Shown here: positions 9,383 to 29,339 of the stretch, piece after piece
How the letters are laid out: each line of letters opens with the position of its first letter
Position numbering within the stretch: position 1 is the first letter of the stretch
Assembly (NCBI RefSeq): GCF_900101025.1
Contig: NZ_FMUH01000001.1
Span: forward strand, 868,001-932,000
Direction: 5' to 3'
DNA length: 64,000 nt
DNA from: Klenkia marina
GTDB taxonomy: Bacteria > Actinomycetota > Actinomycetes > Mycobacteriales > Geodermatophilaceae
The notes under the pieces: model-generated
What the model saw: only the letters and a program-made list of their open reading frames with translations
The model's database searches: none
What the model was told of the DNA's origin: nothing
Made by a program: the position numbers and the translations under genes

Positions 9383-10956
9383 GCCGCGGCGTCCCCTGCG
9401 GCCGAGGCGCCGAGGTAGGCCCGGAGCACCTCGGGGTCGCGCTGCACCTGCGCCGGCGTCCCCTCGGCGATCTTCTTGCCGAAGTCCAGCACCGTGACCT
9501 GCTCGGCCAGCCCCATGACGAAGGGCATGTCGTGCTCGACCAGCACGATCGACAGGCCGAGGTCGCGGCGCACCTGGCGGATGGTCTCGGCCATGTCCTG
9601 GCTCTCCCCGTGGGTCATGCCGGCGACCGGCTCGTCGAGCAGCAGCAGCGAGGGCCGGGCGGCCAGCGCGCGGCCCATCTCGACCCGCTTGCGGTCGCCG
9701 TAGGCCAGCGTGTGCACCGGAGTGCGCAGCAGGTGGGCGATGCCCAGCAGCTCGGCGATGCCGGCGACGGTCTCGCGGTGCTCGCGCTCCTCGCGGCGGG
9801 CGCCGGGCAGCCGCAGCGCGCCGGGCACCAGACCGCGGCGCATGAGCCGGTGCCGCCCGACGAGCAGGTTGTCCTCGACGGTGTCCTCGAGGGCGAGCGA
9901 GATGTTCTGGAACGTGCGCGCCACGCCCAGGCCGGCGACCTTGTCCGAGCGCAGCGCGGTGAGCTCGGCGTCGCCGTAGTGGACGGCGCCCTCGGTGGCC
10001 CGGTAGGCCCCGCCCAGGACGTTGACCAGCGTGGACTTGCCCGCGCCGTTGGGTCCGATGAGGGCGTGCACGGTGCCCGGCTCGACGGCGAAGGAGACCT
10101 CGGAGAGCGCGGTGATGCCGCCGAACCGCACGGTCAGGCCCTCGACCCGCAGCGTCTTGGGAGGCTCGGCGGTGGGGACCGCGGGCTCGGCCTCGACCAC
10201 CTCGGTGGCCACGACCGGGACGGCGACGCCCAGGTACCGCTCCTGCACCTCGTCGCTGGCCGACAGCTCGGCCGCCGTCCCCGACGCGGTGACCCGGCCG
10301 GTCTCCAGCACGTAGGCGGCGTCGGCGACCCGCAGGCCCATGACCGCGTTCTGCTCGATGAGCAGCACCGCGGTGCCCTGCTGGTTGATCGCGGTGACGA
10401 TCTCGCCGATCTGGTCGACCAGCAGCGGGGCGAGGCCGAGCGAGGGCTCGTCCAGCAGCAGCAGCTGCGGGCTCACCATGAGCGCGCGGCCCATCGCGAG
10501 CATCTGCTGCTGGCCGCCCGACAGCAGGCCGCCGGGCTGGTCGCGTCGCTCGGCCAGGATCGGGAACAGGTCGAACACCCGGTCGCGCGCCTCGGCACGG
10601 GCCTTCGCGTCCTTGACGGTGTAGCCACCGGCCCGCAGGTTCTCGGCGACGGTCAGGTCCCGGAAGATCCGGCGCCCCTCGGGCACCTGCACCAGGCCGC
10701 GGCGCACGACGGCGGCGGCGTCGGTGCCGGCGAGGTCCTCCCCGGCGAAACGGACGGTGCCGCCGGTGACGGTGCCGCCGTAGGGCTGCAGGGAGCGGGA
10801 GACCGCCCGCAGCAGCGAGGTCTTGCCCGCCCCGTTGGAGCCCAGCACGGCGACGACCTGGCCGGGCTCGACGGTCAGGGAGACGTCGGAGAGCGCGGTG
10901 ATCGTGCCGTCGTACACGACGTCGAGGTGCTCGACGGACAGCAGCGGTGGGGACAT
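9379..10956 (-). CDS. fused LivF-LivG ABC ATPase
   Basis: A single 525-residue protein holding both ATPases of a branched-chain-type importer, normally two genes. The first half is LivF-like: Walker A 'GSNGAGKT' (about residue 39), signature 'LSGGQ' (about 145) and Walker B 'LLLLDEP' (about 165). After an acidic, Ala/Val/Pro-rich linker (about 245-268) the second half is LivG-like, with Walker A 'GPNGAGKS' (about 301), signature-region 'LAYGDRKR' (about 417) and 'LLLLDEP'. It energises the LivH/LivM permeases. A GTG sits directly before the chosen ATG, so the start could be three bases earlier. It is the first gene of the minus-strand operon and is divergent from the second PaaX-type regulator. 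Confidence 0.9.
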   Translation of the reverse strand: MSPPLLSVEHLDVVYDGTITALSDVSLTVEPGQVVAVLGSNGAGKTSLLRAVSRSLQPYGGTVTGGTVRFAGEDLAGTDAAAVVRRGLVQVPEGRRIFRDLTVAENLRAGGYTVKDAKARAEARDRVFDLFPILAERRDQPGGLLSGGQQQMLAMGRALMVSPQLLLLDEPSLGLAPLLVDQIGEIVTAINQQGTAVLLIEQNAVMGLRVADAAYVLETGRVTASGTAAELSASDEVQERYLGVAVPVVATEVVEAEPAVPTAEPPKTLRVEGLTVRFGGITALSEVSFAVEPGTVHALIGPNGAGKSTLVNVLGGAYRATEGAVHYGDAELTALRSDKVAGLGVARTFQNISLALEDTVEDNLLVGRHRLMRRGLVPGALRLPGARREEREHRETVAGIAELLGIAHLLRTPVHTLAYGDRKRVEMGRALAARPSLLLLDEPVAGMTHGESQDMAETIRQVRRDLGLSIVLVEHDMPFVMGLAEQVTVLDFGKKIAEGTPAQVQRDPEVLRAYLGASAAGDAAA

Positions 10957-10999
10957 CACGAGCCCTCGGGTGCTAGGCGACAGTGTTCCGGGTCACGGG

Positions 11000-11045
11000 A
11001 AAGCTAGAGATGATATGGACGTCCGTCAACAACCTGTCTAGCTTT
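11000..11045. promoter_or_regulatory. inverted repeat in divergent promoter (candidate operator)
   Basis: Between the divergent livFG and paaX-type genes a perfect 9-bp inverted repeat, AAAGCTAGA (11000-11008) and TCTAGCTTT (11037-11045), is separated by 28 bases. The spacer holds a second palindrome, GGACGTCC, at 11017-11024. The block is conspicuously AT-rich for this genome. On the minus strand TTGACG and TAGCTT lie 17 bases apart, a plausible -35/-10 pair for the transporter operon. Binding by the PaaX-type regulator is inferred. Confidence 0.55.
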
Positions 11046-11094
11046 TCATCGCCAGCTGCAGGTGTGCTGGGATCTGCAGCGGACGAGGAGGCAC

Positions 11095-11949
11095 ATGAGC
11101 ACCCCGGTGGACCCGGACGACGGCGGCGGCACCGGCTCGGCACAGGGGCCCGCACACCGCCCGCAGGAGCTGTTGCTGAACTTCCTCGGCGCACTGGTCC
11201 TGGACGCCGGCCTGCCCGCGCTGCCCTCGTCGACGCTGCTGGACCTGCTGGGCGACCTCGGCGTCGGCGAGGCCGCGGCCCGGGCGACGCTGCAGCGCAT
11301 GGTGCAGCGCGACCTGCTCGCCCGCGGCCAGGTGGGCCGCACCGCCGAGTACTCGCTCACCCCGCGCATCGAAGCTGTGCTGCGCCGGGCCGACGCCCGG
11401 GTCAGCGCACCTGCCCCCTTCGACCACCCGGCCGGGGAGTGGACGCTGCTGAGCTACTCGGTGCCCGAGAGCCGGCGGGACCTGCGGCACCGGGTGCGCA
11501 CGCGGTTGACCTGGGCCGGGTTCGGCGGGGTGCGCGACGGCCTGTGGCTGGCCCCGGGCACCGTCGACGTCGCCGACGTGCTGGGCCCGCTGGCCGAGGC
11601 GGCCGAGCTCGCCGACGCCTTCTCGGCCCGCCCGCTGCCCGGCACCGACGTCGGGGCGCTGGTGCACCGGGCGTGGGACGTGCCCGCCGTCCGCGCCGCG
11701 CACGAGTCGTTCGCCGCCACCTGGAGCCGACCTCCGCGGGTGGTCGGCTCGCTGGCCCAGCTCACGCTGCTGGGCGCCGACTGGCTGCACCTGCTGCAGA
11801 CCGACCCCGGCCTGCCCGCCGAGCACCTGGGCCCGGACTGGCCCGCACCGACGAGCACGGCGGTCTACCGGCGCGCCTTCGACGCCCTGGCCCCGGCCGC
11901 CCGAGCCGCCCTCGAGCGCTCGCTGCGCGCCACCGGCCGCGTCGCCTGA
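11095..11949 (+). CDS. PaaX-family transcriptional regulator (second copy)
   Basis: A 284-residue PaaX-type regulator, paralogous to the one at 703-1596. It has a winged-helix region ('PQELLLNFLGALVLDAG...ATLQRMVQRDLLARG') and a core with 'WTLLSYSVPESRRDLRHRVRTRLTWAGFG' and 'GLWLAPGTVD'. I chose the ATG at 11095 because GAGGAGG sits at 11085-11091. It is divergent from the importer operon and shares its promoter region, which contains a strong inverted repeat, so autoregulation plus control of the importer is the simplest reading. PaaX proteins usually bind an aryl-CoA intermediate; here the CoA ligases nearby could make the inducer. Downstream it converges on the MarR gene across a hairpin. 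Confidence 0.85.
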   Translation: MSTPVDPDDGGGTGSAQGPAHRPQELLLNFLGALVLDAGLPALPSSTLLDLLGDLGVGEAAARATLQRMVQRDLLARGQVGRTAEYSLTPRIEAVLRRADARVSAPAPFDHPAGEWTLLSYSVPESRRDLRHRVRTRLTWAGFGGVRDGLWLAPGTVDVADVLGPLAEAAELADAFSARPLPGTDVGALVHRAWDVPAVRAAHESFAATWSRPPRVVGSLAQLTLLGADWLHLLQTDPGLPAEHLGPDWPAPTSTAVYRRAFDALAPAARAALERSLRATGRVA

Positions 11950-26096: not shown

Positions 26097-27167
26097 TCAG
26101 CCCGCAGCCACCGCGAAGCCGTCGCGTCCGGCTCGCTTGGCGGCGTAGAGCGCGGCGTCGGCCGCCGAGTACAGGGTGCGGACGTCGACGGCGTGCTCGG
26201 GGGCGTGCGCCACCCCGACGCTGACGCTCAGCGGCACCGTGGTCCCGTCCTCCAGCACCAGCGGGGTGCCGCGCACCGCGGCGACGAGGTCGCCGGCGCG
26301 GGTACGGGCGACGTCCACCGGGCAACCGGGCAGCAGCACCGCCAGCTCGTCGCCGCCGAAGCGGCTGACCACCGCGTCGGTGCTGCGCACGGCAGCGGCG
26401 AGCACCGACCCGACGTGCCGCAGGACGGCGTCGCCCACCGGGTGCCCGTGCCGGTCGTTGACCGCCTTGAAGTGGTCGAGGTCGACCAGCACCAGGGCGG
26501 TGCCGGCCTCGGCCACGGCGGTGGACAGCGAGGCGGCCAGTGCCGCGTCGAGCACCCGCCGGTTGACCAGGCCGGTGAGGCCGTCCACGGCGGCGGTGCG
26601 CTCGAGCTCGGCCAGCAGCGCGGCGATGTGCTCCATCCCGTGCACCACGAAGACGGCGAGGATGACCAGGCACCCGCAGACCAGCGCCACGTCGACCCAG
26701 AACTCGGGCGCGCTCGCGTCGGCCGAGGTGATGAGCAGGACGGCGACCGACGCCGCGCAGGCCAGCGTCGTGGCGGCGATGGCCACGGCACGGCGGAACA
26801 TGCTGCTGGCGTAGATCACCGGCAGGCCCAGCAGGATGGCCCAGGCGTGCAGGGTGCCGGCGAGGAGCACGGTGCTCACCGCCACGGCGGCGGTCGCGGT
26901 GAGCACCGCGGAGGCGACCACCAGGTCACCGGCGACGGTGCGCGCGGGGACCACCCACACGGCGGCGGCGTGCACCGCGAGGGTGGCGGTCAGCACCCAG
27001 CCCACCCAGGACCCGGCCGCGGCGGGCAGCACGACCAGCGTGAGGGCCAGCAGCGCCGCGCCGCTGAGCAGCAGGGGGGCAGCGACCAGGCGGGTCAGAC
27101 CCGGGCGCACCGGGCGCAGCCACGGGACGCCGGGCGCACGGCGGCGCGGGGCGTCGGCGAGGGGCAC
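26097..27167 (-). CDS. membrane-bound diguanylate cyclase (GGDEF protein)
   Basis: A 356-residue protein with about six hydrophobic spans ('LVAAPLLLSGAALLALTLVVL' through 'VALVCGCLVILAVFVV') and a C-terminal GGDEF domain ('AAVDGLTGLVNRRVLDAAL', 'VDLDHFKAVNDRHGH'). The catalytic loop is 'RFGGDELAVLLPGC', again GGDEL. It is closely related to the protein at 18257-19282, including the C-terminal 'YAAKRAGRDGFAVA'. It should make cyclic di-GMP, sensing something in or at the membrane. GTG at 27167 is the best start I see; none has a strong ribosome-binding site. It is divergent from the helicase gene. Confidence 0.82.
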   Translation of the reverse strand: MPLADAPRRRAPGVPWLRPVRPGLTRLVAAPLLLSGAALLALTLVVLPAAAGSWVGWVLTATLAVHAAAVWVVPARTVAGDLVVASAVLTATAAVAVSTVLLAGTLHAWAILLGLPVIYASSMFRRAVAIAATTLACAASVAVLLITSADASAPEFWVDVALVCGCLVILAVFVVHGMEHIAALLAELERTAAVDGLTGLVNRRVLDAALAASLSTAVAEAGTALVLVDLDHFKAVNDRHGHPVGDAVLRHVGSVLAAAVRSTDAVVSRFGGDELAVLLPGCPVDVARTRAGDLVAAVRGTPLVLEDGTTVPLSVSVGVAHAPEHAVDVRTLYSAADAALYAAKRAGRDGFAVAAG

Positions 27168-27344
27168 GGGCGGGACATCGGCGCAGCTCGGCGGGGACTT
27201 TCGGGCATGGTGCCGTTCCTCACCCCCCGGAGGGTGGTCGGTGTGGCACGGTGGAGGAGGGCACAGAACGGCCGTGGCCGCTGTTGCCCCTGGCAGGTCC
27301 CGAGCGCACCACTGCGCCGACCGCCCCCGGACCCGAAGGACACC

Positions 27345-29339
27345 GTGACACCTCCCTCCCCCACCGCCCGCCGCCGGGTGCGCACCCCCGGTGACCGCAC
27401 CTCGGCGCAGGCCACCCGCAACCGCGCCGAGCGCACCGCCCAGCAGACCTGGGTCGACGGCGCCGAGCCGGCCCTGCCGGTGCGCACCGCCCGGCCCGAG
27501 CACGTGGTCTTCCACCTCGGCCCGACCAACTCGGGCAAGACCTACGAGTCGCTGCAGGCCCTCGCGGCCGCCGGCTCGGGCGTCTACGCCGCCCCGCTGC
27601 GCCAGCTCGCGCACGAGGCCTACGCCAAGCTCACCGCCCAGCTCGGCCCGGGCAAGGTGGGTCTGTCGACCGGCGAGGAGGAGATCGACCCGCACGCGCC
27701 GATCGTCTGCTGCACGGTCGAGAAGGCCCCGCCGCGCGGTGAGCTGCTGGTGCTCGACGAGTCGCACTGGGTCGCCGACCCCGACCGCGGCCACCACTGG
27801 GCCCGGCTGCTGCTCACCGGCGAGTACCGCGAGATGCACCTCATCTCGGCCGCCGAGGCGTTGCTGCTGCTCAAGCCGCTGGTCGCCGATGCCGAGCAGG
27901 TCGTGGTCGTCAACCACAAGCGGCTCTCGCGCCTCGACGTCCTCCCGGCCCCCGTCAAGCCGGCGCAGGTGCGCGAGCAGACCCTGGTCGTGGCGTTCTC
28001 GCGCAAGACCGTCTACTCGGTGGCCGCCCAGCTCGACCCGCACCGCAGCGGCAAGGTCGGCGTCCTCTACGGGGCGCTGCCGCCGGCGACCCGGCGCGAC
28101 GTCATCGCCCGGTTCACCCGCGGCGAGCTCGAGGTGCTGGTGACCACCGACGTCATCGGCCACGGGATCAACGTGCCGGCCACGACGGTGCTGTTCGCCG
28201 AGACGCAGAAGTTCGACGGCACCGAGATGCGCCCGCTGCGCACCTGGGAGGCCGCGCAGATCGCCGGCCGAGCCGGGCGCTACGGGCTCACCGGTCACGG
28301 CCAGGTCGGCGTCCTGGGTGGCATCGCCGGCCTGAAGCCGATGCCGTCGCTGGTCGCCGCCGGCGCGGCCGTCGCGCGCGGCGACGTCATGAGCGACCTG
28401 CCCAACCGCAAGCCGCGGCTGCGCCCCGAGCTCGAGGACCTCGGCGCGTTCGAGGCGGTCGACCTGCCCGAGGCGCTGATGCGCTGGTCGGTGTGGGCCC
28501 GCACGGCCACCCGCACCGAGGCGATGACCCCCGACGACGTCAGCGGCCTGGTGCTGCGGGTGCACGCCCTGCTGCCGATGCTGCGCGGCCCGCTGGCCAC
28601 CGACCTGTGGACGGTCTGGCGCCTGGTCAACCTGGCCATCGACCACGACCCGCCGCGCAAGGTGCGCTGGCTGGCGCTGGCCCGCGCCGCCCTGCAGCAC
28701 CAGGCCGGGCTGGCCGTGTCGCGCGAGCTCGTGCTCCCCGCCGTGCCGCGCGGCACGACCGTGCAGGAGTACGAGGCCGCTGCCGCGCAGGCCCGCGAGG
28801 CCCAGACGCTGCTGCGGTCGTTCCCCGGCGTCGCCGGGCTGACCAGCGAGGACGCCGCCGAGGTCGAGGAGCTCTGCGCGAACCGGATCACCGAGCTGCT
28901 GCCCGACGCGATCGCCCTCACCGGCGCGGCGCGGTGCACCTCGTGCGGGGTCGGCATCGCCCCCTGGTTCACCACCTGCCGCGACTGCGGCACCCGCCCG
29001 TCGGGCCGGCCGTCGTCGGACCGCCGCCCGCCGCGCGCGTCGTCGGGCCGCTCCGGGGGGACGTCGTCCGGCCGGGGGGCCGGAGGGACGTCGTCCGGCC
29101 GGGGTGCCGGAGGGACGTCGTCCGGCCGGGGTGCGGCTGCGTCGTCCGCCGGCCGGGGGGCCGGGGGACGGAAACCGCGGAAGTCCGACGTCGGGGCCGG
29201 CGGCCGCACCGACCCGAACGCCTTCGACCGCAGCGCGCGGGGCCGGGGCTCGGACGCCGGCCCCCCGCACGGCGACTCCGCCCGCCCCAAGCACCGCCGC
29301 CGCGGGCGCTCCGCCGGCGGCCCCACCGGCGCCCGGTAA
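27345..29339 (+). CDS. Suv3-type DExH RNA helicase with zinc ribbon and RG-rich tail
   Basis: A 664-residue superfamily-2 helicase whose closest recognisable relatives are mitochondrial Suv3 RNA helicases. Walker A 'FHLGPTNSGKTY' (GPTNSGKT at 59-66) is the Suv3 form, followed by 'GVYAAPLRQLAHE', 'TGEEE', 'VLDESHWVADPDRGHHW' in place of the DEAD box, 'VVAFSRKTVYSVAAQL', 'GVLYGALPPATRR', 'TTDVIGHGIN' and 'QIAGRAGRYG'. After a helical domain a CxxC...CxxC zinc ribbon lies at Cys531/534/545/548, then a basic, Gly/Arg/Ser-rich tail of about 110 residues with SSGRGAGGT repeats. AAGGA precedes the GTG start. It probably remodels RNA; its partner nuclease is unknown. Confidence 0.88.
   Translation: MTPPSPTARRRVRTPGDRTSAQATRNRAERTAQQTWVDGAEPALPVRTARPEHVVFHLGPTNSGKTYESLQALAAAGSGVYAAPLRQLAHEAYAKLTAQLGPGKVGLSTGEEEIDPHAPIVCCTVEKAPPRGELLVLDESHWVADPDRGHHWARLLLTGEYREMHLISAAEALLLLKPLVADAEQVVVVNHKRLSRLDVLPAPVKPAQVREQTLVVAFSRKTVYSVAAQLDPHRSGKVGVLYGALPPATRRDVIARFTRGELEVLVTTDVIGHGINVPATTVLFAETQKFDGTEMRPLRTWEAAQIAGRAGRYGLTGHGQVGVLGGIAGLKPMPSLVAAGAAVARGDVMSDLPNRKPRLRPELEDLGAFEAVDLPEALMRWSVWARTATRTEAMTPDDVSGLVLRVHALLPMLRGPLATDLWTVWRLVNLAIDHDPPRKVRWLALARAALQHQAGLAVSRELVLPAVPRGTTVQEYEAAAAQAREAQTLLRSFPGVAGLTSEDAAEVEELCANRITELLPDAIALTGAARCTSCGVGIAPWFTTCRDCGTRPSGRPSSDRRPPRASSGRSGGTSSGRGAGGTSSGRGAGGTSSGRGAAASSAGRGAGGRKPRKSDVGAGGRTDPNAFDRSARGRGSDAGPPHGDSARPKHRRRGRSAGGPTGAR
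29055..29150 (+). repeat. 27-bp coding tandem repeat in the helicase tail
   Basis: Inside the 3' end of the helicase gene a unit encoding the nine residues G-G-T-S-S-G-R-G-A is repeated about three times nearly perfectly (GGACGTCGTCCGGCCGGG core), followed by a decayed fourth unit. The copy number is likely to vary between strains. Confidence 0.75.

Follow-up and report, generated by a model that had tools for sequence, protein, structure and literature searches.

The window analysed here, a stretch of 64,000 nucleotides from Klenkia marina (contig NZ_FMUH01000001.1, positions 868,001 to 932,000; host assembly 4.2 Mb in 14 contigs), contains a gene for a compact helicase that is confirmed by sequence, predicted fold and phylogenetic tree as Suv3-type in the broad sense and that ends in two additions, a CxxC-CxxC ribbon and a basic tail rich in arginine and glycine (R/G tail). 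It is not Suv3 proper, given that its motif II is DESH, that it matches no N- or C-terminal Pfam domain of Suv3 and that it groups apart from eukaryotic Suv3. A preliminary description, made from the letters alone, was right about the helicase type and about both appendages, and was ahead of the evidence on function. The best explanation that we can offer, with a probability of about 0.5, is that the protein is an ATP-driven RNA unwindase that aids 3'-5' RNA decay and gains additional grip from the ribbon and the tail.

The open reading frame (ORF), for which the coordinates given in the preliminary description (27345-29339, plus strand) were correct, starts with GTG and comprises 664 codons and a stop codon without any internal stop. 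All five motifs from which the series of mitochondrial Suv3 had been read are present (GPTNSGKT at residues 59-66, TGEE at 109-112, GVLYGALPP at 239-247, TDVIGHGIN at 268-276 and QIAGRAGR at 305-312), but equating them with mitochondrial Suv3 went too far for the reasons given above. The preliminary description had passed over DESH, which is unlike the DExQ for which the Suv3 domain of Pfam is named. With matches up to E = 1 considered, three Pfam families were found in the protein, all inside residues 52-314: DEXQc_Suv3 (PF22527; E = 9.6e-33, 113.4 bits with a cut-off of 27), Helicase_C (PF00271; E = 6.6e-13, 49.3 bits with a cut-off of 23.5) and, below threshold, DEAD. The first two were matched by 18/18 aligned family members. 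Suv3_N, Suv3_C_1 and SUV3_C, which we take to be the names of the terminal domains of Suv3, were absent both from these three families and from the 19 Pfam families listed for the 18 aligned members. The best sequence matches in the PDB were Suv3 chains (6f4a, 7w1r, 3rc3 and 9vc8), human SUPV3L1 included, with Ski2/Mtr4 far behind; for 6f4a_B the E value was 5.3e-45 with the single sequence and 3.4e-89 with the family profile. Motif II was DESH in 38 and DEAH in 19 of the 57 Geodermatophilaceae loci, and in the seven other actinobacterial copies it was DEVQ (4) or DEAH (3). The best named matches, Klenkia terrae and other Geodermatophilaceae, agree with the actinobacterial host that had been proposed.

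The structure of the helicase was modelled with AlphaFold2 on a 40-row family alignment, with a predicted local distance difference test score (pLDDT) of 89 for the model and below 50 for residues 554-572, the modelled stretch of the tail. When the whole model was searched with Foldseek, human and yeast Suv3 took the first four places (best E = 4.5e-30, human Suv3). The VIA-align comparison gave Z scores of 34.1 for 3rc3 (4.5 Å, 494 residues), 33.5 for 6f4a (2.8 Å, 416 residues) and 33.0 for the RNA-bound 3rc8 (3.2 Å, 462 residues, inside model residues 36-540), and the next families were Hel308 (Z 19.4) and Ski2/Mtr4 (Z 17-18). Given that 462 of the 505 residues between 36 and 540 are aligned to 3rc8, at least about 155 of the 199 residues of the C-terminal helical domain (CTD) must be among them. 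Because the RecA domains could account for much of the whole-chain score, residues 326-552 were also modelled alone (pLDDT 90.5). For this CTD-only model Suv3 came first in Foldseek (probability 1.00, E = 0.016), where no match was below E = 0.001, and in VIA, where its Z scores of 8.2, 8.1 and 7.7 were followed by the unrelated 9cc4 (Z 6.9 over 71 residues) and by 6f4a (Z 6.8). Together with the whole-chain alignment, these models lead us to take the CTD as a diverged Suv3-type domain that would be recognisable by structure only.

A phylogeny, which the preliminary description had proposed as a check, kept the window helicase with the Suv3-type proteins. In a first tree of the helicase core, with 51 rows that included six Ski2-type helicases, for which we take HelY to be the name, and no Hel308 or eukaryotic Ski2 rows, the Suv3-type proteins were split from the six HelY-type rows by a branch with 100/100 support and the 11 Geodermatophilaceae rows formed one clade (99/100). 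A single actinobacterial clade was not recovered in this tree, yet it was not rejected by the approximately unbiased test (p-AU 0.25), and when the HelY rows and the long-branched L007 were removed in a second tree the actinobacterial rows formed a clade of their own (99/96). A single clade of eukaryotic and actinobacterial rows was rejected in the first tree (p-AU 0.016). In the second, eukaryotic Suv3 was placed with copies from Bacillota and with two exceptional ones from alphaproteobacteria (97/98). A clade joining eukaryotic Suv3 to the long alphaproteobacterial form was rejected in the first tree (p = 0.009) but not in the second, from which the HelY rows and L007 are absent (p = 0.19); long branches meet in both trees, which limits what they say about the origin of mitochondrial Suv3. 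The PF22527 scores were 174-219 bits for four Bacillota-type copies (L098, L111 and L113 among the copies concerned) and 164-183 bits for an extra copy found in 2/115 alphaproteobacterial genomes (L116 of G955 and L117 of G930), whereas the common long alphaproteobacterial form scored far below both, at about 87-108 bits.

The ribbon follows directly after the CTD in the arrangement C531-x2-C534-x10-C545-x2-C548, and the preliminary description had noted it correctly; it is conserved in the family and in distant compact relatives. In the 40 rows of the family alignment, 26 of them from Geodermatophilaceae, the four cysteines are at least 90% conserved. The ribbon was found in 57/57 Geodermatophilaceae loci, in six of the seven other actinobacterial loci (four of the seven come from the PF22527 search of Actinomycetota genomes; the Agromyces copy L094 is without it) and in 7/8 Bacillota loci, the exception being L100, in which the frame is changed relative to the otherwise very similar Oscillospiraceae copy L101. 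It was present in L113, absent from L111, L116 and L117, and found in none of the four long alphaproteobacterial copies (L105-L108). Among the viral contigs, two compact Suv3-type helicases (L146 and L147) end in a ribbon and four other frames, some truncated where the contig stops, show none. The cysteine pattern suggests zinc binding; matches to the Pfam family DZR were weak (3/18 members, best E = 0.024). A single clade of all ribbon-bearing rows was rejected (p-AU 0.0056), which indicated either an ancestral ribbon that was lost in some lineages or repeated gains of it. Its presence in distant compact relatives, set against a tail seen in only one family, marks the ribbon as a feature separate from the tail.

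The basic R/G tail reported in the preliminary description is present, translated and constrained. In the window it comprises 22% arginine plus lysine and 26% glycine over 116 amino acids (aa), with 17 RG/GR steps, and its length among close relatives is 85-116 aa. When the loci with cut or masked tails were excluded (L046, L047, L053, L060, L069 and L072), 51 of the 57 Geodermatophilaceae loci had a tail, of 33-107 aa, with six or more RG/GR steps in 49/51 and five in the remaining two. As a control, genes were called with a simple caller on the window and the family loci, which found 42 of the 58 helicase copies, the window's own not being among them. At least six RG/GR steps within the last 60 aa were present in 39/42 called helicase copies and in 0/321 other called genes (the nearest among those listed had five), and with a stricter cut, by which arginine, lysine and glycine must make up half or more of these 60 residues, the numbers were 9/42 and 0/321. 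The 39/42 against 0/321 argues that the tails are not a by-product of the 75% GC content. The ratios of nonsynonymous to synonymous substitutions (dN/dS) were obtained from simple pairwise counts over aligned codons between the window gene and six close orthologues (four from named Klenkia, one from a genome of the same genus and one from Modestobacter sp. Leaf380). They were 0.52-1.07 for residues 1-45, 0.06-0.22 for the RecA part, 0.25-0.43 for the CTD, 0.14-0.51 for the ribbon, 0.17-0.52 for the middle of the tail and 0.04-0.31 for its last 54 aa. The low values in the tail indicated that it is translated and under purifying selection.

Among the relatives compared, the R/G tail was seen in Geodermatophilaceae only. 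The other actinobacterial and Bacillota copies stop 3-24 residues past the ribbon or the last matched residue, save L100 and L004. The latter, an actinobacterial copy (genome G220), continues for 131 residues beyond the ribbon in a stretch that is not glycine-rich and is possibly another added domain.

Table. Positions in the window of the helicase gene, its parts and the divergent neighbour.
Feature	Position	Strand	Basis or remark
Likely ribosome-binding site AAGGA	27336-27340	+	4 nt 5' of the GTG at 27345; read from the sequence, unscored
Whole gene, compact Suv3-type helicase	27345-29339	+	664 aa + stop
N-terminal 49 aa	27345-27491	+	Weak conservation, low-to-middling model confidence, no Suv3_N Pfam match
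RecA-like domain 1	27492-27944	+	PF22527 at residues 52-190; structure model
Walker A, GPTNSGKT	27519-27542	+	Within RecA-like domain 1
Motif II, DESH	27756-27767	+	Within RecA-like domain 1
RecA-like domain 2, including motif VI QIAGRAGR (residues 305-312)	27945-28334	+	PF00271 at residues 210-314; structure model
C-terminal helical domain (CTD), predicted Suv3-type fold	28335-28931	+	No Pfam match; structure models
CxxC-x10-CxxC ribbon (C531, C534, C545, C548)	28935-28988	+	Sequence, family conservation
R/G/S-rich tail, 116 aa	28989-29336	+	Composition, selection; last ~54 aa conserved in close relatives
In-frame 27-bp tandem repeat, ~4.4 copies	29053-29170	+	Inside the R/G tail, its middle part
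GGDEF diguanylate cyclase, divergent neighbour	26097-27200	-	Not claimed as a functional partner

The distribution of the gene is patchy. Among 60 relatives, an orthologue scoring above 800 bits was found in 21/36 genomes of the family, the host included, and in 0/24 genomes from other families of the order. Ten of the 15 helicase-negative family genomes are at least 90% complete and one of the 15 (G305) is a single contig; presence in only 21/36 genomes marks the helicase as a family-level accessory gene. A count of 47/60 genomes with a match would overstate the distribution, given that beyond the 21 genomes the matches score about 41-52 bits and were HelY-type paralogues where inspected. A genome scan gave 73 loci, of which 57 were of Geodermatophilaceae type, three from other actinobacteria, eight from Bacillota, four from alphaproteobacteria and one HelY-like from a proteobacterium; the scan used a single query sequence and therefore favours close relatives. 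The Geodermatophilaceae orthologues are 72-94% identical, Klenkia terrae reaching 94% over the core. One copy of this type (L092, 78% identical) stands in a record titled unverified Bacillus sp. AZ43, probably a mislabelled genome. With PF22527 at E = 1e-12 or better, matches were found in 5/296 sampled Actinomycetota genomes (the window's own included), in 3/348 genomes of the phylum of the Oscillospiraceae copy (that copy's own included), in 2/199 genomes of the family of the Leifsonia copy (its own included, the other, L115, being HelY-type by sequence) and in 72/115 sampled genomes of the alphaproteobacterial class. Relatives on mobile DNA were found in six viral-contig loci (IMG/VR), one phage record and 38 plasmid records, none of the latter spanning 80% of the query in one place. 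In the phage record, Salicola phage SCTP-2, the related gene is annotated as hypothetical.

The flanks, of at most 6 kb, were examined for partners, and ten neighbouring proteins were annotated, five from the window and five from L042, L048 and L061. The five from the window are a divergent GGDEF cyclase, a DDAH-type hydrolase, an Lrp/AsnC regulator, an amidase and a LacI-type regulator; none is a decay enzyme or ribosomal. In the window and in G296, G298, G300 and G301 of the same genus, no more than about 0.4 kb separates the divergent GGDEF gene from the helicase core match, and GGDEF matches, some several kb off, were found in the flanks of 10/57 family loci (L038-L043, L067, L079, L083 and L091). 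L038 also has the TetR-like and LacI-type genes of the window, and amidase matches (31-40%) were found in three loci. In the helicase-less genome G302 of the same genus no clean empty site was seen, with an assembly gap possible among its 260 contigs; at 47% identity, the best cyclase match there falls within the range of second copies in the genus (42-52%) and below that of the helicase-linked copies (53-72%). Two candidate partnerships were rejected. For an operon partner, none of the ORFs flanking five reference loci had matches in more than 16/44 others (45 Geodermatophilaceae loci longer than 12 kb), and nucleases with an RNB domain (PF00773) were present in 16/21 helicase-positive and 9/15 helicase-negative family genomes, from which no association is claimed.

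If this single-polypeptide helicase is a helper of RNA decay, its two RecA domains would use ATP hydrolysis to move 3'-5' along single-stranded RNA, which the Suv3-type helical CTD would enclose by completing a ring. Extra affinity for RNA or ribonucleoprotein would come from the ribbon, which compact bacterial relatives share, and from the arginine/glycine tail of Geodermatophilaceae, and the likely role would be to unfold structured RNA ahead of a 3'-5' exoribonuclease (PNPase or RNase II/R-type). The helicase would in that case be a dispensable helper and not a core factor. Polarity, RNA preference and partnership with an exonuclease are expected here by analogy with Suv3 biochemistry: excerpts of PMC5818665 describe yeast Suv3 as unwinding 3'-5', starting at a short 3' tail, and as dependent on the exonuclease Dss1. 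The composition of the tail suggests that it may bind RNA or condense. Several observations weigh against RNA decay. Rice SUV3 binds both DNA and RNA and unwinds DNA in both directions (excerpts of PMC4207899), so that neither RNA preference nor 3'-5' polarity is assured, and R/G tails can also serve DNA or protein binding. DESH departs from Suv3. The scores of the CTD alone are modest, and according to a warning of the tool a Z of about 8 may reflect a common helical arrangement. No widely conserved neighbour ties the helicase to a decay enzyme, the RNB counts carry no partner signal, and in the Blastococcus copy L048 a DNA polymerase A-type gene (9703-11649) lies about 2 kb downstream, with matches in 11/44 other loci.

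The polymerase gene and the rice enzyme would suit a helicase that acts on DNA or R-loops to maintain the genome, with a tail that binds nucleic acid non-specifically, and Hel308 is the next fold match after Suv3. We consider this quite unlikely, given that the Suv3 match is far stronger (Z 34 against 19) and that the polymerase gene accompanies only a minority of copies and does not occur among the five annotated window neighbours. A helicase acting on ribosomes or in rRNA maturation is also on the unlikely side, if a little less so: ribbon and basic tail would dock on rRNA and the motor would remodel pre-ribosomes or stalled mRNA-ribosome complexes, like Ski2-type relatives on the eukaryotic ribosome. 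Small ribbons and R/G tails occur commonly in ribosome-binding proteins, and by entry titles Ski complexes on 80S and 40S ribosomes were among the fold matches, but the five annotated window neighbours are not ribosomal and absence from 15/36 family genomes, ten of them at least 90% complete, is ill-suited to a core ribosome factor. The patchy distribution across phyla and the relatives on viral contigs (two ribbon-bearing), phage and plasmids could instead point to a mobile-element or phage-related helper, acting in defence or in takeover, that became established in a single family. This appears very improbable, since the PADLOC matches, to HamB/DpdF-type and similar helicases, were partial and confined to RecA2 (44.6 bits at best), the ten neighbouring proteins scanned include neither a phage nor a defence gene, and the Geodermatophilaceae rows form a single clade.

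A broader scenario combines these results: compact ribbon-ended Suv3-type helicases might be an old free-living bacterial lineage (Actinomycetota, Bacillota and viral contigs), mitochondrial Suv3 might come from this side and not from the long form of most sampled Alphaproteobacteria, and the R/G tail, as a later gain in Geodermatophilaceae, might make the protein of this family an RNA-granule or ribosome-tethered helicase. We regard the scenario as a whole as doubtful. If a compact Suv3-type helicase does act in free-living Gram-positives, it would broaden the known drivers of bacterial RNA turnover, serve as a small bacterial model of how Suv3 works mechanically and bear on the origin of mitochondrial Suv3; as a helicase outside mitochondria that has drawn little notice, it provides a lead that can be tested. 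In the excerpts available, Suv3 is placed in eukaryotes and in purple bacteria or Rhodobacter (PMC5818665, PMC4551930 and PMC4207899), bacterial degradosomes are associated with DEAD-box helicases (PMC5818665), and PMC10253155 appears as a review of SUV3. Among the matches listed, no paper indicated a Suv3-type helicase in Actinomycetota or Bacillota by its title or abstract opening, in a search outside of which most subscription journals lie. Relatives are already in the databases as sequences, given that plasmid copies are annotated 'helicase-related protein' in 6 of 15 records among those listed.

Compared with known systems, the Klenkia protein is closest to mitochondrial Suv3/SUPV3L1 (3rc3, 3rc8 and 7w1r; yeast mtEXO 6f4a), with which it shares both RecA domains, the motif series, a predicted Suv3-type CTD and a whole-chain superposition at VIA Z 28-34. 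It differs in having DESH instead of DExQ, no match to the Suv3 N-terminal domain, a CTD invisible to Pfam, a ribbon and an R/G tail, and a separate group in the tree. The long alphaproteobacterial Suv3-like helicase, probably the purple-bacterial Suv3 of the literature, has the same RecA core (38-39% identity over it, L105-L108), but it is about 830-870 aa long with a long C-terminal part, has DEIQ in the three copies scored and is without the ribbon. The compact helicase of Oscillospiraceae and further Bacillota (L098-L104, L109 and L113) resembles the Klenkia protein in its length of about 530 aa (intact copies), in its ribbon and in sequence (29-42% identity), whereas its motif II is DEAQ in 7/7 scored, it has no R/G tail and it groups with eukaryotic Suv3 and not with the actinobacterial copies. 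One copy of this type, L113, has an extra N-terminal region (about 370 aa in a stop-to-stop frame) before the core. The Ski2/HelY-type helicases, represented in the host genome by two paralogues (L002 and L003), share the superfamily 2 DExH core with the Klenkia protein, but their identity is 31-32% over part of the core, the tree, which did not include L003, puts L002 and five further rows on a distant branch (100/100), and the Ski2/Mtr4 fold match reaches Z 17-18 against 34 for Suv3.

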